In this document: one piece after another, positions 6,768 through 51,265 of the stretch
How the letters are laid out: every line of letters starts with the position of its first letter
Numbering within the stretch: position 1 is the stretch's first letter
Assembly (NCBI GenBank): GCA_021778415.1
Contig: JAJYCL010000005.1
Coordinates: 1 to 64,000, forward strand
DNA length: 64,000 nt
Source of the DNA: a bacterium
GTDB taxonomy: Bacteria > Vulcanimicrobiota > Vulcanimicrobiia > Vulcanimicrobiales > Vulcanimicrobiaceae
Direction of reading: 5' to 3'
The notes under the pieces: model-generated
Told to the model about the DNA's origin: nothing
The model's input: the letters and a program-made list of their open reading frames with translations, nothing else
The model's database searches: none
Program-made: the position numbers and the translations under genes

Positions 6768-9459
6768 AAAATCTTTTCATCGATCGCGTCAGATTGCCGG
6801 ACTCGTCATCCTTGCGGTCATTATTGTCGCATTATTTCAGGCCTTGGCCCTTTCTCTGCGAGTTTCATCAGACTCGGTGCTTGAAGGGCGTCTCAATGAA
6901 AGTGGTTTGCGTCGAGCGCTCATTTATCGCATCGCCTGGCAGTCCGAGCAAGCACTCCACCATAAAAACATCGGTATCGATACCACGCTTCAAGCGACGA
7001 TACATGAATTTACTTCCGTACAAACTCGTGTCGGCGAATCGCTTTCTCTCAAAGACCGTGCCCTTCTCGCATCTTTTTTGGCGGTCTCCACGCGCATCGC
7101 TGCAGGACACCCGCAAAAAGGCGATGAGTACGTCCTGAATCACGCCGCCCCAAATTTGTTTGCGCTGTTCAACAAGAGCACAGAACGCAATGTGCAAGTG
7201 CTCCTGGAAAATAGGCTGCGGGCTCGTCAATTTATTCTTGTTGGGTCGGTTTTTATTGTCGTCGTCGCTAGCATTCTTTTCTTTGTCGTGCTGTTGCCGG
7301 CCATGGAGCGGGGCGAGTCGTTCGCTGAGGAGTTTGAAGAGAGCCGCGAACGCTATATGGCGATATTCCATGGCAGCCCTGATCCCATGGTTCTTTATAC
7401 GCTTGATATGCGTGTTACGACTTTTAATTCTGCGGCCGAAAAATTGTTTGGTTCTGATCTAGCGGTCGCAGGAACGCAATTTGATGGCTATGTTGCAGAA
7501 GATTCTAAATCAGAGATTGAGGCTGCGTTTTCGCGCGTACGCTCCGGTCAATCGGTGCAGATGGATGCAACCCTTCTTGGCAGCGAAGGACGCACGATCC
7601 CGGTTTCCGTAACACTGTTCCCGCTAAAAATTAGGGGTACGGTCTTGCAAGCCTGTGGGATCATCAAGGATCTCACGGAAATTACCGAGACGCAGCGTGC
7701 ATTGCGCGAAAATTCCGAATATTTCCGCTCGCTCTTTGAGGGAGCATCGGATGCGATGACGCTGTACGATCTCGATGGAAACATCGTGCGTGGGAATGCC
7801 GCATTTACTGCTTTATTGGAGTTTTCGGCGGAAACATTTGGGGCGCCGTACTCGGTGCATGTCGCTCCGGAAATGCAAAGTTCTGTCGCTGCATGTTTTC
7901 GAAATGCGCTTGGCGGTCGATCGGTCGAATTCGAATCAATTTTCATGACTGCCGGCATTAAACGGATTCCCGTTCTTGCCAGTTTTTCTCCGATTGTTGT
8001 TGACGGAGCCGTTGTCGGGATTTTCGGGGTAGCCAAAGACCTTACGGAGATTCGTTTTGCAGAAGAGGCGATGGTTCGTAGTGAGAATGAATTTCGGTCA
8101 ATTTTCGATTTTAATCATGACGCAAGCTTAGCAACCGATCTTCAATCGAGGATCGTTCGAGTCAATTCTGCTTTAGAACGAATGCTTGGGCGGCGGGCTG
8201 AGCAATTAATTATGACCAACGCAACGGATTTGGTTCCATTGGACGATCGGGCTGCTCTTGCGACGGTGGCCGAGAATATTCGAGACGGAGAAATTTCGAC
8301 GATCGAGACTCGCATTATGGGGCCTCACGGTAGGGAAATTGAAACGGTCATGCGTTCGGTCCCGATGTTCGCGCAAGGAGTATTAAGTGGTGCCTTCCAC
8401 TTTTTACGAGATGTGACGGAATTGCGAGCGGCTGAAAGACGAGAGACGGTGCAGCGCGAGCGCTTAGGGGCAGTTGCCCTCCTCGCTGCCGCCCATGCAA
8501 TCGATGTTGCCGAGCAAATTGAGCGGACGCTGTCATTCGGCCTTATGTCGTTTGCTATGCAGGGTGCATCGATTTCCGTTATTCAGGGGAGCGAAGTCGT
8601 TGTGCTCTATGCGATGGGCGAGTCGATTCCCGCTGGGAGCCGACTGCCGATTGAACAGACCTACATGCGTCATTTTTTTGGTTCTCCTGAACCTTTTTGC
8701 ATCGACGACATTACGAATAGCGAATTTCGCTCCGATCGAGCTCGCGACTGGCAACCGTGGCAATCATTGATTGGCGCCACTATTTTTGTGGGTGAAGTGC
8801 CGAAGGGAGTTGTCATCTTTTTTGGGCGCATGCCGAGGACGGAGCTCTTTGATGATGGAGATCGCAGTTTTCTTCAGGTCGTCGCATCATTAATTGGATC
8901 GGCAATGGAGCGTGATCGCCAGCAACAGGAACTCAGCGAGCGAGCGCTTACGGATGCCTTGACCGGATTGCCGAACCGACCTGCCTTTAATGACGCCATA
9001 CGTGCGGCCTTTGCTCGAGCGCAGCGCTCGAAGAGCACGTTAGGAGTGCTGTTCTGCGATCTGGATGGATTTAAATCCGTCAATGATACCTTCGGGCATG
9101 CAGCGGGAGATGCGTTACTGCGAGGCTGCTCCGAACGATTGCGGGCGACCCTTCGAGAGGGTGATTATGTTGCCCGTATCGGTGGAGACGAATTTGTTGT
9201 TTTTCGCTGCGATGAGTGTGGTGATGACGACAATCAGTACCTTGCCAATCGGATCGTCGCGGCACTTTCCGAACCTTTCGATTTGGATGGATGCGTGGTG
9301 CAAATCGGGGTGTCGATAGGATATGCAGTATTCCCGGACGATGCCGATACGGCAGGTGAGCTTATTCGGGTTGCGGACGAGGCAATGTATTTGGCAAAAC
9401 GGGCCGGGAAAGGCCGAGTGGCGCGTGCGCGCCGGGAACGAGAGGACCCAACGGCGTAA
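6757..9459 (+). CDS. membrane diguanylate cyclase with three PAS domains and GAF-like domain
   Basis: The 900-residue protein starts at ATG 6757 inside rsmE. Two transmembrane helices (about 13-32 and 158-181) flank a roughly 125-residue extracytoplasmic region. Three PAS-like domains follow (about 200-310, 320-430, 445-555), then a GAF-like segment (about 570-730) and a GGDEF domain. The GGDEF motif is intact at residues 809-813, with an REGD inhibitory site just upstream. It should synthesise c-di-GMP. The domain order and the linker RERLGAVALLAAAHAIDV closely echo the cyclase upstream of rsmE, which has one PAS fewer. The ligand is unknown. Confidence 0.92.
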   Translation: MNYKKSFHRSRQIAGLVILAVIIVALFQALALSLRVSSDSVLEGRLNESGLRRALIYRIAWQSEQALHHKNIGIDTTLQATIHEFTSVQTRVGESLSLKDRALLASFLAVSTRIAAGHPQKGDEYVLNHAAPNLFALFNKSTERNVQVLLENRLRARQFILVGSVFIVVVASILFFVVLLPAMERGESFAEEFEESRERYMAIFHGSPDPMVLYTLDMRVTTFNSAAEKLFGSDLAVAGTQFDGYVAEDSKSEIEAAFSRVRSGQSVQMDATLLGSEGRTIPVSVTLFPLKIRGTVLQACGIIKDLTEITETQRALRENSEYFRSLFEGASDAMTLYDLDGNIVRGNAAFTALLEFSAETFGAPYSVHVAPEMQSSVAACFRNALGGRSVEFESIFMTAGIKRIPVLASFSPIVVDGAVVGIFGVAKDLTEIRFAEEAMVRSENEFRSIFDFNHDASLATDLQSRIVRVNSALERMLGRRAEQLIMTNATDLVPLDDRAALATVAENIRDGEISTIETRIMGPHGREIETVMRSVPMFAQGVLSGAFHFLRDVTELRAAERRETVQRERLGAVALLAAAHAIDVAEQIERTLSFGLMSFAMQGASISVIQGSEVVVLYAMGESIPAGSRLPIEQTYMRHFFGSPEPFCIDDITNSEFRSDRARDWQPWQSLIGATIFVGEVPKGVVIFFGRMPRTELFDDGDRSFLQVVASLIGSAMERDRQQQELSERALTDALTGLPNRPAFNDAIRAAFARAQRSKSTLGVLFCDLDGFKSVNDTFGHAAGDALLRGCSERLRATLREGDYVARIGGDEFVVFRCDECGDDDNQYLANRIVAALSEPFDLDGCVVQIGVSIGYAVFPDDADTAGELIRVADEAMYLAKRAGKGRVARARREREDPTA

Positions 9460-28248: not shown

Positions 28249-30540
28249 TTAGAGCGAGGTGTTCAGCGTAAAGAGGAACCGCCTTCCATTCGCGATTTGC
28301 GTGGAGTTGAACCCATTGGATATCTTGATGACGTACTGGTGATTGAGGATATTATCAACGGCGAACGTGTAGCCGAGACCGTGCTGCGGCGTATGGCCGA
28401 ATGACGCATCGAATGCGAGATGCGTGGGAAGTCGCGACGGACCATTTTGAAATTGCACGGGATAGCCCGTCCCATAATCGGTTTCGATTGTGGCGAAATT
28501 TTGATTCCCTTCACCGAATTTGCGCGTAAAGGCGCTACTGATCGAGACGGTTTGGTCGTGATCCTCCGGTTGCAAGGGATAGGTCGGTTGAGAGCCGCCG
28601 AAAAGGAACGTCGATCCCGAAATTCCGCCTGCATAGGATGCCGACCAACTTCCCGAAACAAACCAATTCGAACGATTATCGAACGTTCGTCCTTGCAGAC
28701 GCAGTTCTAAGCCCGCTGCTTGCCCGACCGTATTGTTGTAAACGGCGAAGATCGGTGTGTTGAGCAATTGCGTCGTATCGAGCACGTTTGCGACGTTACG
28801 CCGCCAAATGTTTACGTAGCCTGAGGTGAGAGGTGTGAACGTGTGTCGGATCCCCGCTTCATAGTAACTATCATGTTCCGGTTGGAGATCGTAGACCGGT
28901 GTTGTCGGGCACCCCTGCAATACTACGCACGCTTGCCGGACGTCTTCGAGTTGCGGCGCCGCGTAAAAACGACCGTAATATAAATGCAGGATGTCCTTTG
29001 CATCTATGACCGCGTTGAGTCCGATGCGAGGGCTGAATTGTTGGCCAAACGTGTACCCGGTCGATTTATCGTAACGGAGTCCATACGAAATGGAAATCGC
29101 GCGAGATGGATTCCATTGGTCTTCTCCGTAGAATCCAATTTGCGTGCCGACCTGTCCTTGGTTTGAGAGCGAACTGGGAAGACCGAGTTGAGCAAGCGTC
29201 TGATGTGCGTTGAAATATTCGCGGGCAAGGTCGAGGCCGAATTTCGCATAGTGATGCGGCGAGGAAACCGAGTTGCTTGCGCGGAGTCCAACATAGGTTG
29301 CCGCACGATCTTCATGTAGGCCGACGAGATTGATAGTTGCCGGCGGCGGGTTCGGATTCGGTTGCGTTGCTAAGACATCGTTTCCGAGGTCGCCTAAATA
29401 GGTAATGCGCGATGATCGCACCCATGGAATGAGATCAAATGCCGCGTTGCCGCCGGCCGACGAAAGCGACAGGTGGAGATTGGCAAAACGATCACGCTCG
29501 ATTTGCACGTCTTGCGTTCCAGGAACGCTTACCACCGGATCGTTCGGGTTTTGAGGATCGGAGTTGATCGGAATTTGAAATTGCGAGAGTTGGTTTGATG
29601 TATCAATGGAAATTGTCCCGCGTTTGCCGACGTTGCGAACAAATCGTGCGAACTGATCACTTTGCGAGGATGTATCGTTGATTGCAGAAAACGTCGGGGC
29701 GTCCAAGCCGCGCGCCGTTCGATTGGCGTTGAGATTGAGGAACAGCGCCCCGCCCGCAAGGCGCGACGCGGTGGAAAGGCTCGTCGAAGCTTGCCCTTGA
29801 TTGCCGATGCCAACGCTTACATTTCCCATAAAGGGTTTGCGTAAATTGGGATTGCGGTCGGTGACGATGTTGACGACGGCTCCCGCACGGCTTCCACCGA
29901 ACTCTGCGGGCATCGCACCGGTATAAACTTCGATCGCATCGACATTGCGTGGATCGATGATTTCCGCGAAGTTCGAGGATGTGGCGACGGGTGTCGGGGC
30001 ACCGTCGATTTCATAGGTGATGCCGTGAAAGCCGTGAGCCACCGGCTCGTTATAGGAGAAACGGACGATGCCAGGCAGCGTCTCGACGACGCGGTTGAGG
30101 CTGGTGTTATTCGGTAACGTTTGTAGCGTACTACGCCCAATCTCGTTTTGTGAGACTGGGGTGCCCGATGCTTGCGCCGAGGAAACCACGTGAATATGGG
30201 CAATCGATTTGAGCGAACCTTGTTTGACAAGCGTTAGCATAAAGTGCGCCATTTGGCCGCTGGCAAGATCGAATACGCGCGATTCGTCTCGATATCCCTC
30301 GAAATGCGCGGTGACGGTATAATGGCCGAATGGGACGCGCATGAACATAAACATGCCCATCGCGTTAGTGGTTGTGCGCTCGTGACGTGAACCGCCGTCG
30401 AGCGTAACGAGGACTCCGACTTGCGGTGTCGCCGCGATATCGACGCGGCCTCCGACCATCCCGGTCGTCGCTGCGGCAACGGGTAGCGCGCACAAGAATA
30501 CGAGCAAACAAGCGCAAAGCGCTCGATTCAATGATGACAT
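28249..30540 (-). CDS. TonB-dependent receptor with carboxypeptidase-regulatory-like domain
   Basis: The 763-residue protein has a signal peptide (1-24) and a CarboxypepD_reg-like beta sandwich (about 27-105, GRVDIAATPQVGVLVTLDGG). The plug domain (about 130-235) includes LNRVVETLPGIV, YEIDGAPTPV and AIEVYTGAMPAEFGGSRAGAVVNIVT. A 22-strand-type barrel runs to the C-terminus (RRFLFTLNTSL). It would import a scarce ligand across the outer membrane with TonB energy. It lies 40 bases after the small membrane protein of the multicopper-oxidase cluster, so it may take up copper, manganese, iron or a chelate. That link is inferred from position only. Confidence 0.9.
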   Translation of the reverse strand: MSSLNRALCACLLVFLCALPVAAATTGMVGGRVDIAATPQVGVLVTLDGGSRHERTTTNAMGMFMFMRVPFGHYTVTAHFEGYRDESRVFDLASGQMAHFMLTLVKQGSLKSIAHIHVVSSAQASGTPVSQNEIGRSTLQTLPNNTSLNRVVETLPGIVRFSYNEPVAHGFHGITYEIDGAPTPVATSSNFAEIIDPRNVDAIEVYTGAMPAEFGGSRAGAVVNIVTDRNPNLRKPFMGNVSVGIGNQGQASTSLSTASRLAGGALFLNLNANRTARGLDAPTFSAINDTSSQSDQFARFVRNVGKRGTISIDTSNQLSQFQIPINSDPQNPNDPVVSVPGTQDVQIERDRFANLHLSLSSAGGNAAFDLIPWVRSSRITYLGDLGNDVLATQPNPNPPPATINLVGLHEDRAATYVGLRASNSVSSPHHYAKFGLDLAREYFNAHQTLAQLGLPSSLSNQGQVGTQIGFYGEDQWNPSRAISISYGLRYDKSTGYTFGQQFSPRIGLNAVIDAKDILHLYYGRFYAAPQLEDVRQACVVLQGCPTTPVYDLQPEHDSYYEAGIRHTFTPLTSGYVNIWRRNVANVLDTTQLLNTPIFAVYNNTVGQAAGLELRLQGRTFDNRSNWFVSGSWSASYAGGISGSTFLFGGSQPTYPLQPEDHDQTVSISSAFTRKFGEGNQNFATIETDYGTGYPVQFQNGPSRLPTHLAFDASFGHTPQHGLGYTFAVDNILNHQYVIKISNGFNSTQIANGRRFLFTLNTSL

Positions 30541-30580
30541 GGAAATCCTTCGATTGTGAAAAGGGTGAAAAATGCGCGCG

Positions 30581-31096
30581 TTAAGCGCGTTGGATATTCA
30601 CGAACGAAGGTGGAGCACGAGGGCGACGCAGTGAGTGTGCGCGGCGACCCCGATAGAGCGTTGCCGCGGTGCTATAGTGACAAAGAAATTCTGGTAGGCT
30701 GGAGTGAAAAACGCCGAAATCGGCAGTCCATGCGAGATCGCGTGCAGCAACGAGAAGGGCGCGAAGACCTGCGACAACGGCTGCAACCACGAGCGGTGCC
30801 AACAGAGGAATCGAATGCTGCGGCTCAAGTGCTTCGATGCCGCCGAGGCAGAGCAGCGTGGAACTTATCGCTGGCGCAAGCTGCGGAAGAATCGAGATGC
30901 GTTTTCGTAGCGACCATGCCAGCGAGAGCGAGCCGACGGCCAAGGCAAGGGCAACACTGCCGGCAATAAGGGCATGTTCGGGGCCACCAATGACATGCGA
31001 ATCGGCAGCAAAAAGGAGCGAGTGGGCAACAACCGCGCTGGGAAGTGAAAATGACGCCAGCGCGAGGATGCGAACGGCGCGTCGCGCGAGGGTCAC
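30581..31096 (-). CDS. small polytopic membrane protein of the oxidase cluster
   Basis: The 171-residue protein has about four transmembrane helices (residues 8-28, 43-60, 70-90, 95-118) and an Arg-rich C-terminus (RGRRAHSLRRPRAPP). The pattern RIxALxxxxxPSAxxAHxL, then GGPEHA, is shared with the protein at 34396-34998; the two look like diverged paralogues on either side of the oxidase and cytochrome. Its start overlaps the oxidase stop by four bases (ATGA). No known family was recognised. It may anchor or mature the copper oxidase or carry electrons to it; that is a guess. Confidence 0.65.
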   Translation of the reverse strand: MTLARRAVRILALASFSLPSAVVAHSLLFAADSHVIGGPEHALIAGSVALALAVGSLSLAWSLRKRISILPQLAPAISSTLLCLGGIEALEPQHSIPLLAPLVVAAVVAGLRALLVAARDLAWTADFGVFHSSLPEFLCHYSTAATLYRGRRAHSLRRPRAPPSFVNIQRA

Positions 31097-32526
31097 GACT
31101 TGTAGTCGACCTCGGTCATCATGCCGGACATCATATGGACGGAATTATGACAGTGGAGCAACCAACGCCCGGCTGGTGAATCGGCGCGAAACTCCCAGGT
31201 CATCGTTCCACCGTTGGAGCGAACGAGGGACGTATCTTTCAGCAGCGGACGTGCCAAGCGTTTGCCGTCGATCTTCGTAATCTTGAAAACGTGGCCGTGG
31301 AGATGCATGGGATGATCCATGTCGGTCGTGTTGTGATACGTGATTCGAACCAAATCGCCGCGATGCACGATGATCGGGGGAATATGTGGGTACACCTTGT
31401 CATTCATCGTCCACGCGCTATGACCGTAGCGTCCGCCGCCAAGTTCAAAATGTTGCGTAACGTTTGCCCGGAGTTCCATGTACGTTTGCGGCTTTGTATT
31501 GATGCCGGCGAGCGTTTCATACGTTCCCACGACGGCATCTCCAAGCAGCATCGACGACGCTTGCGGCGGAGCGTGCTCCATGCCGGTCGTTGCGAGGACG
31601 ACGGATTGTTGATAGGCGGTCGGTTCGCTGGAAATCTCTTGTAAGAGAAAAGCGCCGGGATGGGCAATCGTGACGTACGCGTCGATCCGCTCGGCGACGC
31701 CGAGGCGAACGACATCAACATCGATCGGAACGCTCAAGCGGTTGCCATCCGTATGTGTGACGGTGAGCTTATGACCGGCTAGGCGAACATATTTCGTCTG
31801 AGTGGGATTTGCATTGAGCATGCGCAAGCGAACGCGTGAACCGGCGCGCACGGAGAGCGTCTTGGTTTGCGGATAACTGGCGCCGTTGATGCAATGTGCG
31901 AGATAGCCGACTTCGTCGCCCATTTTATCGCCGGCCTTCATCGATGTCATCTCGCGCGAATCCATCGGCTCGGTCATCGGCGCGTTGCTGACACCGCGCA
32001 TCGCGGCCTCATAACTCGGCATCGAAGGAACATCGTGGAAAACGATCGCGAACTCGGCATCGGCAGGTTCGTCGGCTGGGTCTTCAACGATAAAGACGCC
32101 GAAGAGTCCGTTGATGAGTTGGCGATCGTAATGGTCATGGTACCATCGCGTCCCCGATGGATTCGCGGCAAACGCATACTCGAAAGTCCCGTTCGGAGGG
32201 ACCGGCTTTTGCGTGACGTTCTGTACGCCATCCATCGCGTTGGGCAGAATCATGCCGTGCCAATGGATGGTCGAATCGTGACCGCTCTTATTGGTATAGG
32301 CAATGCGAACGCGTTGGCCGACGCGCGCACGAAGGATTGGCCCCGGCAAAAATCCGTTATAGGCGTACGATGGATACGATTGCCCGGTCGACGGCGAGAA
32401 GGCAAATGGCGTCGAAGTGAGCTTATACGAGAGCTCGTCTTCGGCAAAGGCTCGTGAAGCGAACGGCGGAATCGCGACGGCAAGCATTGCGCCGGCCGAG
32501 CGCTGGAGAAAATGTGCGCGTTGCAT
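31093..32526 (-). CDS. multicopper oxidase (laccase/CumA-like)
   Basis: The 477-residue exported protein (signal peptide about 1-28) has all four copper-ligand motifs: HWHG at 88-91, WYHDH at 128-132, HPMHLHGH at 405-412, and HCHNSVHMMSGMM from 458, with type-1 ligands His405, Cys459, His464 and Met469. It oxidises a phenolic, Cu(I), Mn(II) or Fe(II)-like donor and reduces O2 to water. It follows the dihaem protein by five bases and overlaps the next gene, so the set is one transcript. A Met/Asp-rich loop (about 185-205, TEPMDSREMTSMKAGDKMGD) resembles substrate-gating loops of cuprous oxidases. Confidence 0.93.
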   Translation of the reverse strand: MQRAHFLQRSAGAMLAVAIPPFASRAFAEDELSYKLTSTPFAFSPSTGQSYPSYAYNGFLPGPILRARVGQRVRIAYTNKSGHDSTIHWHGMILPNAMDGVQNVTQKPVPPNGTFEYAFAANPSGTRWYHDHYDRQLINGLFGVFIVEDPADEPADAEFAIVFHDVPSMPSYEAAMRGVSNAPMTEPMDSREMTSMKAGDKMGDEVGYLAHCINGASYPQTKTLSVRAGSRVRLRMLNANPTQTKYVRLAGHKLTVTHTDGNRLSVPIDVDVVRLGVAERIDAYVTIAHPGAFLLQEISSEPTAYQQSVVLATTGMEHAPPQASSMLLGDAVVGTYETLAGINTKPQTYMELRANVTQHFELGGGRYGHSAWTMNDKVYPHIPPIIVHRGDLVRITYHNTTDMDHPMHLHGHVFKITKIDGKRLARPLLKDTSLVRSNGGTMTWEFRADSPAGRWLLHCHNSVHMMSGMMTEVDYKS

Positions 32527-32531
32527 CGTTC

Positions 32532-34340
32532 TTAGCCTCCAATATTGACCGGAATGGTCATGGTCTTGCCGTCGTAGTGCAGAATGAGCGTCCAGGGGCC
32601 CGACATCGCGAATTCGATCGTCCCGCGAAAGACGTGGGGGTCCGTAGGACTTGGCGTAAGGACCACGTTAGCGGAGCGCATCGACATGCCCCCCATTTCC
32701 ATGAGCGGTTCGATCGTCACCGATGTTGGAGGCGTTCCGGAAAATGTCACGCGGATTTGCCCGTGTTGGCTTGGCGCGCCGCCAACCCAGGTCACGATCG
32801 GCCGGGCCGTTGCGCCGCTACCGCCGTCGAGCCCGGAAAGATACGCGACGATATCGTGAATTTGCGGTGCAGTAAATCCGAAGTTCGGCATCGGAGCGCG
32901 CGGATTGCGGATGAAATCGGCGATTTGCGCAGGTGAGAGGCGTTTTTCTATGCCGACGAGTTTGGGGCCCAAACCACCGCCGAAGGTTGCGCCGTGGCAA
33001 CCGATGCACCCATTTGCTGCGACGAGTTTCTCGCCGGCATTCGCATCCGCGGGGTTTGTCGGTGTCGAGGCGACGGCGGAGGCATGTAAGACTTGCATCG
33101 TATGGGCGCCATGGAGCACAGCGAAATCTTCTTTTGCTTGGAGATGTTCTTGCGTTGCCGATGCGGAGACGACGTGGATTCCAGCTGGAGCCGTGAGCAG
33201 GTAGCGTTTGCCATCTTGCCACGGACCGGCGATGCCAAAGCCGAAGCCGATCTGCGGACGCATGCCGGGACCCATGGAAAGTTCGCTGAGGAATTTGATA
33301 TTCGGCGCAATATTATGCGCATAGTCGACAAGATACTGGCGATTGAGCGTATCGCTCGCACCGATATCATAGCGAACGAGTACATGGTTGCGCCAACCAA
33401 AATCGCGGGTGAGTTCGAACGTTGCGCCATTGAGTGGAATATTGGCTAGGCCGACATCGGGCGAACTATCGAACCCGTGATAGAGCATCGATTGGAAATG
33501 CCATTTCGACGTTTGATACGCGTAGTAGATTCCTTCGCGTGTGAATGCGTCTCCGTGTAAATAGAGGTTGGAGATCGTATTTAAAACGGGCGAGTCTCCA
33601 CGCATCGCGACGACACCAAGCGTCCACGGAATGGACATGCCGCCATAGGAGAGATTGAGATCGACGGTTCGCGGACTATCGGCGCGATTAAAATCGAAGG
33701 CTCCTTGAATCGGCTGAGCGCCTGCGATGTAGGCGGCATTGTACATGAATTCGTTAGACATGCCGTTGAAGGCAACGCCCCAATGGGCGTCATTCGGGAC
33801 GAAGCCGTTTTGGCCGACGCCTTGCGCGGCGAGGAGATAATCTCCCATCGTCCAGGCGTGTGCGGGCATAAATGGAAACGGCGTGTGGAATTTGCCGACT
33901 TGAATCGAGTTGAGGCCGTGAAAGAGACCATTATAGGAAATCCACGATTGCTCGGTGATTCCCGCAGCGTTGGAACTGATAAGGTGTTGCTCGGCAAACC
34001 ACGTCATGCGCGGCCCGAGATATCCGCCGCCTAAGATCGACGTGTCGGCAAGTTGCGTTTGCGCCGGTTGGCTCTTATTGGCAAGATACGAGTAGATTTT
34101 TACCCGCATCGCGAGGGGAAGCGCTTGATGTTGCAGATGCCAATCGAGGACTTGAAAGTTCGACATCATAACCATCATGCCGTAGCGCGTCATCGCCGGA
34201 TACGTGGTATGGCAAACTTCGCACGAGATGCCTTGTCCATTGGCAAAGACGGGGATGGCATCTGCGCGTCCGGCAAACACGAACGTGCTCAAAACTAGTG
34301 CTGCCCCTGCGAGCACGCGAACCAACGAAAATTTCGTCAC
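32532..34340 (-). CDS. exported dihaem protein: cytochrome c, probable beta-barrel, cytochrome c, FixH/YtkA-like tail
   Basis: GTG 34340 (GGAGA nine bases upstream) gives a signal peptide and 602 residues. A first haem site CEVCH lies at 40-44. A long region (about 60-400) has alternating aromatic/polar strands such as GLNSIQVGKFHTPFPF, WGVAFNGMSNEFMYNAAY and LVRYDIGASDT, like an outer-membrane porin. A second haem site CIGCH at 445-449 sits in a class I cytochrome c domain with LVGIEKRLSPAQIADFIRNP and Met ligands. The last 85 residues (EMGGMSMRSANVVLTPSP, FRGTIEFAMSGPWTLILHYDG) resemble FixH/YtkA. It lies five bases before the copper oxidase and would pass electrons to or from it. The barrel is predicted by eye only. 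Confidence 0.8.
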   Translation of the reverse strand: MTKFSLVRVLAGAALVLSTFVFAGRADAIPVFANGQGISCEVCHTTYPAMTRYGMMVMMSNFQVLDWHLQHQALPLAMRVKIYSYLANKSQPAQTQLADTSILGGGYLGPRMTWFAEQHLISSNAAGITEQSWISYNGLFHGLNSIQVGKFHTPFPFMPAHAWTMGDYLLAAQGVGQNGFVPNDAHWGVAFNGMSNEFMYNAAYIAGAQPIQGAFDFNRADSPRTVDLNLSYGGMSIPWTLGVVAMRGDSPVLNTISNLYLHGDAFTREGIYYAYQTSKWHFQSMLYHGFDSSPDVGLANIPLNGATFELTRDFGWRNHVLVRYDIGASDTLNRQYLVDYAHNIAPNIKFLSELSMGPGMRPQIGFGFGIAGPWQDGKRYLLTAPAGIHVVSASATQEHLQAKEDFAVLHGAHTMQVLHASAVASTPTNPADANAGEKLVAANGCIGCHGATFGGGLGPKLVGIEKRLSPAQIADFIRNPRAPMPNFGFTAPQIHDIVAYLSGLDGGSGATARPIVTWVGGAPSQHGQIRVTFSGTPPTSVTIEPLMEMGGMSMRSANVVLTPSPTDPHVFRGTIEFAMSGPWTLILHYDGKTMTIPVNIGG

Positions 34341-34395
34341 AAAAGAGTCTCCGCCGCAACGCGGCTTATCGCGCAAGTAGAATAATCGAACTTGG

Positions 34396-34998
34396 CTAAA
34401 GGCGCGGAGGTGGCCGAGAAAAGGCGTGCGGGAATGCGTGAACGCCGACGGAGACGATCGGTGCAAAAGCGTAGGCGGGCATCGCCGGGCCGGTTCCGGA
34501 GCGGGGGCGATGCGAACTCATCCGCGCAGCAGCCAGCGTCGCGACGTGATGTATCCATTGCGATAAGAAGCGAATGGCGAGAATGGCAATCAGCGAACAG
34601 AGAACCTGGCTTGCAAATCCGAGCCATCCAGTCGGATGACGTTCAATGGTTTCGAGTGCCGTGTAGAACAGAATCTGCATGCCGAGGATCGAGGCAAAGA
34701 GTGCCGAGAGGCTTGGCATGCGGTCGATCGTTCGGGCGCTAAAGAGTGCCAGCGACGAAAGGACGGCGAAAACGACGAGCCCGGGAACGAGCGACAGCTC
34801 GAGGGCATGAAGATATGCCTCGTGCTCGGGAAGGCCCAAGAGCACGGTGCCCAATCGGCTCGCCAGAGCGTGCCCGGCCAGCATCGCTGGGACGGCCACG
34901 AGGGCGGCAATACGAAAGACGCGACTCACCAAGACGTACAACGCCCGGTGGCCGATGTTCGTTGCTAAAATCTCAAAAAAAGGTATATCCTTTCGCAA
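34396..34998 (-). CDS. small polytopic membrane protein, paralogue of the one at 30581-31096
   Basis: The 200-residue reading frame has about four transmembrane helices and a C-terminal Pro/Arg-rich tail (HAFSRPPPRL). The stretch VSRVFRIAALVAVPAMLAGHAL then LPEHEAYLHALEL aligns by eye with the start of the protein at 30581-31096. The longest start is TTG 34998; the alignment favours a later one (TTG 34941 or GTG 34929), and no ribosome site decides it. It heads the oxidase-cytochrome cluster and is divergent from the ymdB operon. Function is unknown. Confidence 0.6.
   Translation of the reverse strand: MRKDIPFFEILATNIGHRALYVLVSRVFRIAALVAVPAMLAGHALASRLGTVLLGLPEHEAYLHALELSLVPGLVVFAVLSSLALFSARTIDRMPSLSALFASILGMQILFYTALETIERHPTGWLGFASQVLCSLIAILAIRFLSQWIHHVATLAAARMSSHRPRSGTGPAMPAYAFAPIVSVGVHAFPHAFSRPPPRL
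34979..34993. promoter_or_regulatory. inverted repeat AAAGG-TATAT-CCTTT
   Basis: A perfect 5-bp inverted repeat with TATAT centre lies in the divergent region between the oxidase cluster and the operon starting at 35069. It could be an operator or part of a -10 element on either strand. No regulator family was matched. Confidence 0.4.
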
Positions 34999-49483: not shown

Positions 49484-51265
49484 CTACCTGAATAAGCCGA
49501 GTATCGACTGCTCGTTGAGATTGGATTGCGAAAGCACCGATGTCCCGACTTGGATGAGGACTTGCAAGCGTGTGAATTGCGTTGTTGCTTGTCCGACGTT
49601 CAGGTCGCGAATTTGCGATTCGGCGGCTTGCAGATTCACTGCCGCGATCTGATCGTTTTGCGCATCCTCATTTAGGCGAACGATGACAGCGCCAAGCTGC
49701 GCGCGTTGCGTGAGCAAATTCTGTAGCGCAATATCGATCTGACCGATGGCATCCTCAGCACCAAGAGAAGCGTTACCGGCCGATGAAATCGCCAGATTGA
49801 TATTTGAAACTCGGAGCGTTTGCGTATTGGTCGCCGCAAGTCCCACTTGAATGACGTCCCCTTCGTTTGCCCCGGATTGCAAATTCAACGCTGCGTTACT
49901 GGAGTTTGTTAGAGCGGCTACGTTTTGGCTGACCTTGATATAGGCAGTCGTCCCAACGTCGAGCGCCCCAAAATTGCCCGTTGTAATGCTCAGATTTTCG
50001 AAATCGTTATTTGTAGAACTCGACCCGAACAACGTCGAATCGACGGATATCGCGCCGGTCGCACTGTTGATGAACGTCTCTTGAACCGCAATCGACGCTC
50101 CGGTGTTGATGACGTGCAATTGGACCGAACCGTCGAGGGTGGAATAGGTGCCTCCCGCAGTTGCCGCATACGTACTCACCGAACCGATGGTGGTGTTGAA
50201 GTTTGCATTCGCAGCTGAAACGCCGGCGACGAGGAAGTTAGGATTGATCGCCGCGCCCCCGCCCGAACCTGGCGGTGTCGACACCAAATTGAGGCCGACA
50301 TTCGTGAACTGACTATTCCCACCGGTCTGAATGTTGTTGAATGCGAGCGTCACCGTACCGGCCGCGTTGGCCACAAAGGTGTTGGTCGTGATCGCCGTAT
50401 ACGAGTTAGTGAGAAACAATCCGGCACCCGATGTGATATCGGTTCCGTTAGCAACCACCTGAACATGCGCGGATCCCGGCGCGGTAGACGCGGCCGCGTA
50501 GCTGACCGAATAGGTCGCTCCGGCAATAAGGCCGGTAACGGTCGTCTGGGCGCTGGCCCCTGCGGTAAATCCCCCGAGCGCCTGCGAGCCTGCTGGGACG
50601 ATCGGGTCGACTCCGTCGTTCCCGTTGATCAAAACGAAACCGCCCGCGAGGGTCCAGCTGGGGATGGCAGGTGCCAGGATCGCGCTATTCAGGGCAATCG
50701 GTGGGTTCGTGAAACTGCCGTTTGACACGACTGCCGAGCCGGGCGACGACCCGGCACCGGCTATGGCACCGCCGCCACCCGAAAGGGCGGTATTTGCCGT
50801 GACCGTAGCAGCCGCGTTCTGCTCGGCTTGAAAGCCCGCGTGGCTTCCATCGAGCAACGACTGCCCGTTAAAATTCGTGTTCTGCGAAATGCGATTGATC
50901 TCAAGGAGAAGCTGAGAGACTTCGGCTTGTAGGTTCTTTCGGTCGCCCAGCGACACGAGATCCGATGACGCTTCGATCGCGAGGGTGCGAATGCGCTGTA
51001 AAATATCGGTTGCTGTTTGCAACGCACCATCGGCTACTTGAGTCGCGTTATTTGCTGCTTGGACATTTTGTACGGCTTGCGAGAATCCGGAAACCTGGGT
51101 TTGCAGGTTGGTCGCAATCGCCAATCCCGAAGGATCGTCGGCGGCATTATTGATGCGCAACCCGGAAGAAAGCTGCGCCGTAATGTGTTGCAACGATGAT
51201 TGGTTCTGGTTGAGGTTATAGAGAACCCCATTGGCCAGTAAATTGTTCGCAAGGCTGATGGCCAT
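49484..51265 (-). CDS. fliC: flagellin
   Basis: The 593-residue protein has the conserved flagellin N-terminal D0/D1 region (residues 1-140: LSSGLRINNAADDPSGLAIA, ATDILQRIRTLAIEASSD, LLLEINRISQNTNFNG) and C-terminal D1/D0 (about 505-593: IGQIDIALQNLLTQRAQLGAV, AAESQIRDLNVGQATTQFTRLQVLIQVGTSVLSQSN). The long middle (about 145-500) is Ala/Gly/Thr/Asn-rich, surface exposed and variable. GGAGGAG lies five bases before ATG. A sigma-28-type promoter is upstream. No other flagellar gene is in the window. Confidence 0.95.
   Translation of the reverse strand: MAISLANNLLANGVLYNLNQNQSSLQHITAQLSSGLRINNAADDPSGLAIATNLQTQVSGFSQAVQNVQAANNATQVADGALQTATDILQRIRTLAIEASSDLVSLGDRKNLQAEVSQLLLEINRISQNTNFNGQSLLDGSHAGFQAEQNAAATVTANTALSGGGGAIAGAGSSPGSAVVSNGSFTNPPIALNSAILAPAIPSWTLAGGFVLINGNDGVDPIVPAGSQALGGFTAGASAQTTVTGLIAGATYSVSYAAASTAPGSAHVQVVANGTDITSGAGLFLTNSYTAITTNTFVANAAGTVTLAFNNIQTGGNSQFTNVGLNLVSTPPGSGGGAAINPNFLVAGVSAANANFNTTIGSVSTYAATAGGTYSTLDGSVQLHVINTGASIAVQETFINSATGAISVDSTLFGSSSTNNDFENLSITTGNFGALDVGTTAYIKVSQNVAALTNSSNAALNLQSGANEGDVIQVGLAATNTQTLRVSNINLAISSAGNASLGAEDAIGQIDIALQNLLTQRAQLGAVIVRLNEDAQNDQIAAVNLQAAESQIRDLNVGQATTQFTRLQVLIQVGTSVLSQSNLNEQSILGLFR

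Follow-up and report, generated by a model that had tools for sequence, protein, structure and literature searches.

The question raised by this locus is what kind of outer-membrane protein is encoded by one open reading frame that places a c-type heme-binding motif on either side of a long strand-rich region, and with which partner such a protein would work. The gene lies in the window, the 64,000-nucleotide stretch of DNA that was analyzed, and belongs to a soil and mine-water bacterium whose genome also encodes cytochrome c maturation and Omp85 genes. The gene, referred to below as the fusion, has the following parts.

32532-34340, minus strand: whole fusion gene, 602 amino acids, with a GTG start at 34340; the gene is supported by orthologues
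34260-34340, minus strand: putative signal peptide, residues 1 to 27, a hydrophobic stretch with a GRAD end before AIPVFA
34116-34259, minus strand: N-terminal Cyc2-like monoheme cytochrome, residues 28 to 75, with the motif AIPVFANGQGISCEVCHTTYPAM, from a Cyc2 profile match
34209-34223, minus strand: heme-binding motif CEVCH, residues 40 to 44, from the sequence
33225-34115, minus strand: predicted 16-strand outer-membrane porin, residues ~76 to 372, from the model and its porin matches
33051-33224, minus strand: variable linker, residues 373 to 430, from the alignment, methionine rich in some relatives
32829-33050, minus strand: C-terminal class I cytochrome c, residues 431 to 504, from Pfam and the alignment
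32994-33008, minus strand: heme-binding motif CIGCH, residues 445 to 449, from the sequence
32541-32807, minus strand: YtkA-like beta domain, residues 512 to 600, from a profile and the alignment

The chain therefore runs in the order signal peptide, cytochrome c, predicted 16-strand porin, cytochrome c, and YtkA-like domain. The original prediction had described a single chain of cytochrome c, barrel, cytochrome c, and FixH/YtkA-like domain, and its motifs, strand, and reading frame agree exactly with those listed. The C-terminal cytochrome matches the Pfam family Cytochrome_CBB3 (cbb3-type cytochrome c) over residues 431 to 501 with an E value of 6.5e-12, and its conserved APMPNF segment likely provides a methionine ligand. 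The last domain matches YtkA (PF13115) with an E value of 6e-4 in the whole protein; the final 95 residues alone reach 2.9e-5 with 25.1 bits, just short of the gathering score (25.9). The same profile is matched by 20 of 21 homologous C-terminal domains, with a best E value of 6.6e-6, and Met547, Met549, and Met579 are invariant across the 21 homologues. Methionine-rich segments are often tied to copper binding. Repeats of the MPGMAGMPGM type are present between the barrel and the second heme at four related loci (L062, L064, L036, and L038).

The region between the two cytochromes has no family match in Pfam or NCBIfam, and its fold was assessed by structure prediction. An AlphaFold2 model of residues 28 to 389, built with 14 homologues, presents 16 beta strands over residues ~76 to 372, with a pTM of 0.64 and a mean pLDDT of 60; the last strand comprises residues ~363 to 372, and the N-terminal heme domain has a pLDDT below 50. 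In a Foldseek search with this model, the matches listed are porins throughout (OmpU, Omp32, OmpF, OmpC, and PorB), with a best E value of 2.5e-10. VIA-align superimposes the model on Omp32 with a Z score of 21.6 and a root mean square deviation of 3.0 over 275 residues, followed by OprP (21.3) and OprO (21.2). The barrel profile finds no sequence match among solved structures, nor does the barrel alone show similarity to Cyc2 in hhalign (2.7%), as is expected for porins. A count of amphipathic segments is mildly above that of shuffled sequences (12 candidate strands; the shuffles average 7, and 10 of 500 are equally high) and was not relied on for the barrel call. A soluble sandwich or propeller over residues 60 to 400, the outcome that the original prediction had named as speaking against its barrel, is contradicted by the 16-strand model and by Z scores of 21 to Omp32, OprP, and OprO. 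The barrel claim holds, and the region is predicted to form a membrane barrel, with modest local confidence. A full-length AlphaFold2 model, for which 14 homologous loci supplied 16 additional rows, was unusable (pTM of 0.37); it places a helix at residues 2 to 21, inside the putative signal peptide.

A heme domain followed by a porin in one polypeptide has precedents. The iron oxidase Cyc2 is a single-chain fused cytochrome-porin (Keffer 2021, PMC8406198), as is Cyt572 of Leptospirillum (PMC10654088), so the statement in the original prediction that known porin-cytochrome conduits use separate proteins is incorrect. Its suggestion of a new type of conduit falls with it, the more so as an Eremiobacterota genome of acid-mine-drainage origin was already known to carry a Cyc2-like gene, read as iron oxidation (PMC8357290). 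For the comparison with Cyc2, six Cyc2-like genes were drawn from plasmids of Caballeronia, Paraburkholderia, Methylocystis, Ideonella, Acidiphilium, and Polymorphobacter, five of which entered it. Cytochrome and barrel together score 97% against this set in the hhalign profile comparison (E value of 3.5e-11), and a profile of the window family matches the Caballeronia gene with an E value of 1.3e-9. Across 398 Pseudomonadota genomes this profile has many matches at the N terminus, most of them in reading frames ~390 to 540 residues long; none extends over the full architecture. The 26 Pseudomonadota relatives inspected in full all have a single heme motif and lack the C-terminal heme and YtkA domain. 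A plasmid search with the window protein retrieved generic cytochromes and short N-terminal matches, and nothing more.

The fusion shares with Cyc2 a signal peptide, an N-terminal CxxCH cytochrome related by profile, and, in the same chain, a 16-strand porin resembling OprO and OprP, the two porins to which the authors of Cyc2 matched its barrel (PMC8406198). It differs in two motifs. In place of the AXPXFAR[Q/K][T/Y] that precedes CXXCH, the window protein has AIPVFANGQ, and FANGQ is found throughout its aligned orthologues, whereas FAR[QK][TY] is present in the Pseudomonadota relatives inspected. The PXL that stands four residues after CXXCH is likewise absent from the window protein, where the proline is in place but is followed by AM (PAM). 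From its sequence, the fusion is placed in the Cyc2-like superfamily; it is not filed as Cyc2 because FAR[QK][TY] and PxL are missing. Cyc2 also has one heme motif, while the fusion has two (residues 40 to 44 and 445 to 449), a YtkA-like domain, and a link to a multicopper oxidase. Cyt572 is similar in being a one-chain cytochrome-porin with an N-terminal heme, but its description has one N-terminal heme motif and neither a C-terminal cytochrome nor a YtkA domain. The resemblance to MtrAB, MtoAB, and PioAB is limited to a barrel and c-type hemes in the outer membrane, as these systems hold a separate decaheme protein inside a 26-strand barrel (PMC8406198), compared with the 16 strands, two hemes, and single chain of the fusion. 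Two things are new: the C-terminal heme with its YtkA domain, and a laccase-like multicopper oxidase as the regular partner. The open-access literature yielded no account of a C-terminal extension made of cytochrome and YtkA, which does not prove that none exists.

Homologues with the same domain order were sought across the phylum. Matches to the fusion occur in 102 of the 149 genomes searched, and the full-length single chain is present in 26 Eremiobacterota genomes, the window's included, the others being 50 to 60% identical. The window genome holds three paralogues, one with N-terminal cytochrome, barrel, and C-terminal cytochrome and two with N-terminal cytochrome and barrel only. Most barrel-only members stop at or just past the strand equivalent to residues 362 to 372, and one such paralogue ends in the classic terminal strand FATGLEFAY; the end of the barrel in the fusion was placed from the stop position of these paralogues. 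Side-by-side pairs of barrel-only paralogues are seen in two genomes (L104 and L105). One genus of a second family encodes the chain in two adjoining genes, one for the barrel and one for the cytochrome-YtkA part, the latter with a signal peptide of its own. Three loci from another family of the class (L036, L037, and L038) have three heme motifs in a chain of N-terminal cytochrome, barrel, and two C-terminal cytochromes; they have no YtkA domain and are followed by a multicopper oxidase, Tat-like in L036. A quickly built tree, with some long branches, unites the Pseudomonadota sequences (SH-aLRT of 97), places the window protein inside a supported group of two-heme proteins, and requires about four state changes overall for the two-heme state. 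The split forms (L083, L088, and L039 to L041) nest inside the fused clade at two separate places on this tree.

The even number of strands implies that both ends of the barrel are periplasmic, and the occurrence of the C-terminal part as a separately exported protein in the split genus implies that this part works in the periplasm. On both grounds, a periplasmic position is the most plausible one for each heme: the pore or its mouth would hold the first, and the linker would carry the second. The picture of two hemes flanking the barrel on opposite sides of the membrane is disfavored by the same two observations.

The genes that surround the fusion form a likely operon with it, on the same strand, with the following features.

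34396-34998, minus strand: small protein with several transmembrane segments ending in SRPPPRL, a putative CutF-like leader with an unsure start codon, 55 nucleotides upstream of the fusion
34341-34419, minus strand: RPPP codons and intergenic region, with predicted pairing to the fusion's ribosome-binding site, strong in relatives and weak here
31093-32526, minus strand: laccase-like three-domain multicopper oxidase, directly downstream of the fusion after a 5-nucleotide gap
30581-31096, minus strand: second small transmembrane protein of the same kind, ending in RRPRAPPSFVNIQRA (RAPP), between the oxidase and the TonB receptor
30541-30622, minus strand: stem-loop between the RAPP-end codons (CCUUCG) and the ribosome-binding site of the TonB receptor (CGAAGG), z of -3.58
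28249-30540, minus strand: TonB-dependent receptor with a carboxypeptidase-regulatory-like N terminus, last gene of the likely operon

The multicopper oxidase carries the Pfam domains Cu-oxidase_3, Cu-oxidase, and Cu-oxidase_2 and all four copper-ligand motifs (HWHG, WYHDH, HPMHLHGH, and HCHNSVHMMSGM), and main-clade oxidases retain all four. It scores 203 bits with the CopA model TIGR01480, far below the cutoff of 479. No second homologue of it was found in the window genome. An adjacent, codirectional oxidase gene accompanies 19 of 20 fused loci, 3 of 3 split loci, and 3 of 3 distant three-heme loci; it is also adjacent in 7 of the 8 stand-alone cytochrome-YtkA genes examined and in none of the 4 paralogue loci checked. 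Because the oxidase is adjacent across fused, split, three-heme, and stand-alone loci but at no paralogue locus, the cytochrome-YtkA unit and the oxidase look like a module to which a Cyc2-like barrel was joined. At one fused orthologue that has no adjacent oxidase (L056, G057:C48, near position 8165), a long unrelated reading frame follows. In Bacillus, YtkA (CtaK) supports the assembly of the copper site in cytochrome oxidase (PMC13344008).

Known systems resemble parts of this pairing. In PcoAB and CopAB, an outer-membrane porin gene is likewise paired with the gene of a periplasmic multicopper oxidase, although PcoB, unlike the fusion, is cited with 10 to 12 strands and no heme (PMC5566968). 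The Pfam and NCBIfam hits of the fusion chain, which carries heme motifs, include no match to PcoB or CopB. The MofA/MofC locus resembles that of the fusion in having genes for a cytochrome c and a multicopper oxidase side by side (PMC5566968), but it has neither a porin nor a fusion.

The small transmembrane proteins upstream of the fusion and of the TonB receptor may add a layer of regulation. A proline-rich, arrest-like C terminus, R[PA]PP near the stop codon, is found in the window and at 19 other loci, in a transmembrane family that has otherwise diverged. Among 17 relative loci tested, the predicted folds of 14 pair the proline codons with the fused gene's ribosome-binding site at a probability of at least 0.75. 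Shuffling of only the middle part weakens the leader folds, with a combined Stouffer z of -12 over 19 sequences that include the two window sites and related sequences and are not independent. Within the window, the hairpin before the TonB gene has a z of -3.58, equaled by 0 of 200 shuffles, and that before the fusion is weak (z of -1.89, and about 0 with middle-only shuffling). The folds were judged by single-sequence folding and shuffles; RNAalifold gave no consensus on the leader hairpins because the loops do not align. In the systems described so far, the multicopper oxidase CutO is under the control of CutF, an exported protein that senses copper while nascent (PMC9973294), and CruR, of the copper-sensing CruR-BfrG leader system, lies upstream of a TonB transporter (PMC9426467). 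The proteins described here share with CutF-CutO and CruR-BfrG an upstream exported or membrane protein with a C-terminal PP motif, placed before an oxidase or TonB gene. The hairpin that in CutF covers the following ribosome-binding site has a predicted counterpart that is strong in most relatives and at the TonB gene of the window but weak at the fusion. They differ from CutF and CruR in belonging to a family with several transmembrane segments, for which the upstream protein has no DUF2946 match in Pfam and the alignment no conserved CxxxC. By analogy, the protein upstream of the fusion is regarded as a putative CutF-like leader.

Elsewhere in the window, a flagellin (49484-51265, minus strand) has N- and C-terminal flagellin domains and a DUF642-like domain in its center.

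From the domain order, the barrel fold, the Cyc2 homology of the N terminus, the pairing with the oxidase, and the separate export of the split C-terminal part, all seen at the level of sequences and models, we infer an electron flow, its direction, and a metal substrate. As a member of the Cyc2-like superfamily of fused cytochrome-porins, the fusion may let electrons in through the outer membrane and feed them to the oxidase by its tethered heme, a reading that in our judgment is evenly balanced between right and wrong. The protein would be exported and receive heme at two sites, its porin would insert into the outer membrane, and the N-terminal cytochrome would occupy the periplasmic opening of the pore or lie next to it. 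The N-terminal heme would be reduced by an external reductant that comes in through the pore, for which metal ions such as Cu(I) or Fe(II) are the likeliest candidates. The electron would then pass to the C-terminal cytochrome c, with histidine and methionine as probable ligands, held in the periplasm by the flexible linker, and from there to the neighboring multicopper oxidase, which would reduce O2 to water. The YtkA-like domain would bind copper and help to load or guard the oxidase. A broader form of the proposal is held tentatively, with more doubt than belief: a self-contained outer-membrane oxidase that takes electrons from outside through a heme-plugged porin and a tethered cytochrome to a dedicated oxidase, bypasses the respiratory chain of the inner membrane, and is possibly under translational control by a nascent-chain sensor.

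Against this proposal stand the modest confidence of the barrel model, the poor full-length model, the fused orthologue with no adjacent oxidase (L056), and the missing sequence similarity between the barrel and Cyc2. The window genome also encodes three heme-copper oxidases (COX1 genes), so electrons could go elsewhere than to the multicopper oxidase. A barrel-only paralogue (L151, G000:C14, 177-4505) lies ~1 kb from a divergent COX1-COX2 pair, and another Cyc2-like protein of the window genome may for that reason be tied to a heme-copper oxidase. In a respiratory path of the Cyc2 type, extracellular Fe(II) would be oxidized at the porin, the C-terminal cytochrome would act only as a built-in Cyc1-like relay that supplies soluble carriers and a heme-copper oxidase, for energy conservation, and the multicopper oxidase would give metal protection in parallel. 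Such a path is unlikely, though a serious contender: it accords with the Cyc2 homology of the N-terminal domain, with the reading of the acid-mine-drainage Eremiobacterota gene as iron oxidation (PMC8357290), and with the three COX1 genes, one of them near a barrel-only paralogue. The constant partner of the fusion is nevertheless a multicopper oxidase and not a heme-copper oxidase, the YtkA domain and methionine-rich linkers point to copper, and the FAR[QK][TY] that defines Cyc2 is missing.

The same copper features could be taken further, to a function in copper protection like that of PcoAB and CopAB, in which barrel and periplasmic oxidase would turn Cu(I) into Cu(II) and the hemes would aid chemistry or sensing in the periplasm, with no electrons crossing the outer membrane. 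The pair of porin and multicopper oxidase is a known arrangement (PMC5566968), and the class of the oxidase (CueO/CopA/laccase), the invariant methionines of the YtkA domain, the methionine-rich linkers, and the CutF-like leader upstream all fit this account. Two c-type hemes are however unneeded for such chemistry, and the Cyc2 superfamily membership of the N-terminal domain also speaks against it. PcoB, unlike the fusion, is not known to carry heme. The 16 strands of the barrel also exceed the 10 to 12 cited for PcoB. Purely periplasmic copper protection is considered unlikely, to much the same degree as the respiratory path.

The direction of flow is a further point. Porin-cytochrome conduits such as the Mtr and Mto systems can run in either direction, and a periplasmic donor might reduce the hemes for the reduction of extracellular Cu(II), Fe(III), or quinones. 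Although a TonB receptor follows in the operon, outward flow is very unlikely, as the partner oxidase consumes electrons and the operon shows no CymA-like quinol oxidase of the inner membrane. Finally, the chance that the fusion is an artefact of gene calling, a frameshift, or assembly joining separate genes is negligible, for despite the split version in one genus, the single chain is present in 26 independent assemblies and the split forms are nested within the fused ones on the tree. The reading of the fusion as an electron inlet to its neighboring oxidase is the one preferred here.

Cyc2-like proteins serve as marker genes for iron oxidation, and the fusion represents a widespread branch, in a poorly cultivated phylum, that the published motif filter would miss. 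This branch has a second heme of its own and is tied to a copper oxidase, not to a respiratory one. The likely leader suggests that nascent-chain metal sensing extends beyond the DUF2946 family. If the electron route is true, a porin-bound heme would be wired to a periplasmic oxidase within one chain, offering a compact system for testing how electrons pass onward from Cyc2-type proteins, and the split, fused, and barrel-only relatives would form a natural series for such tests.
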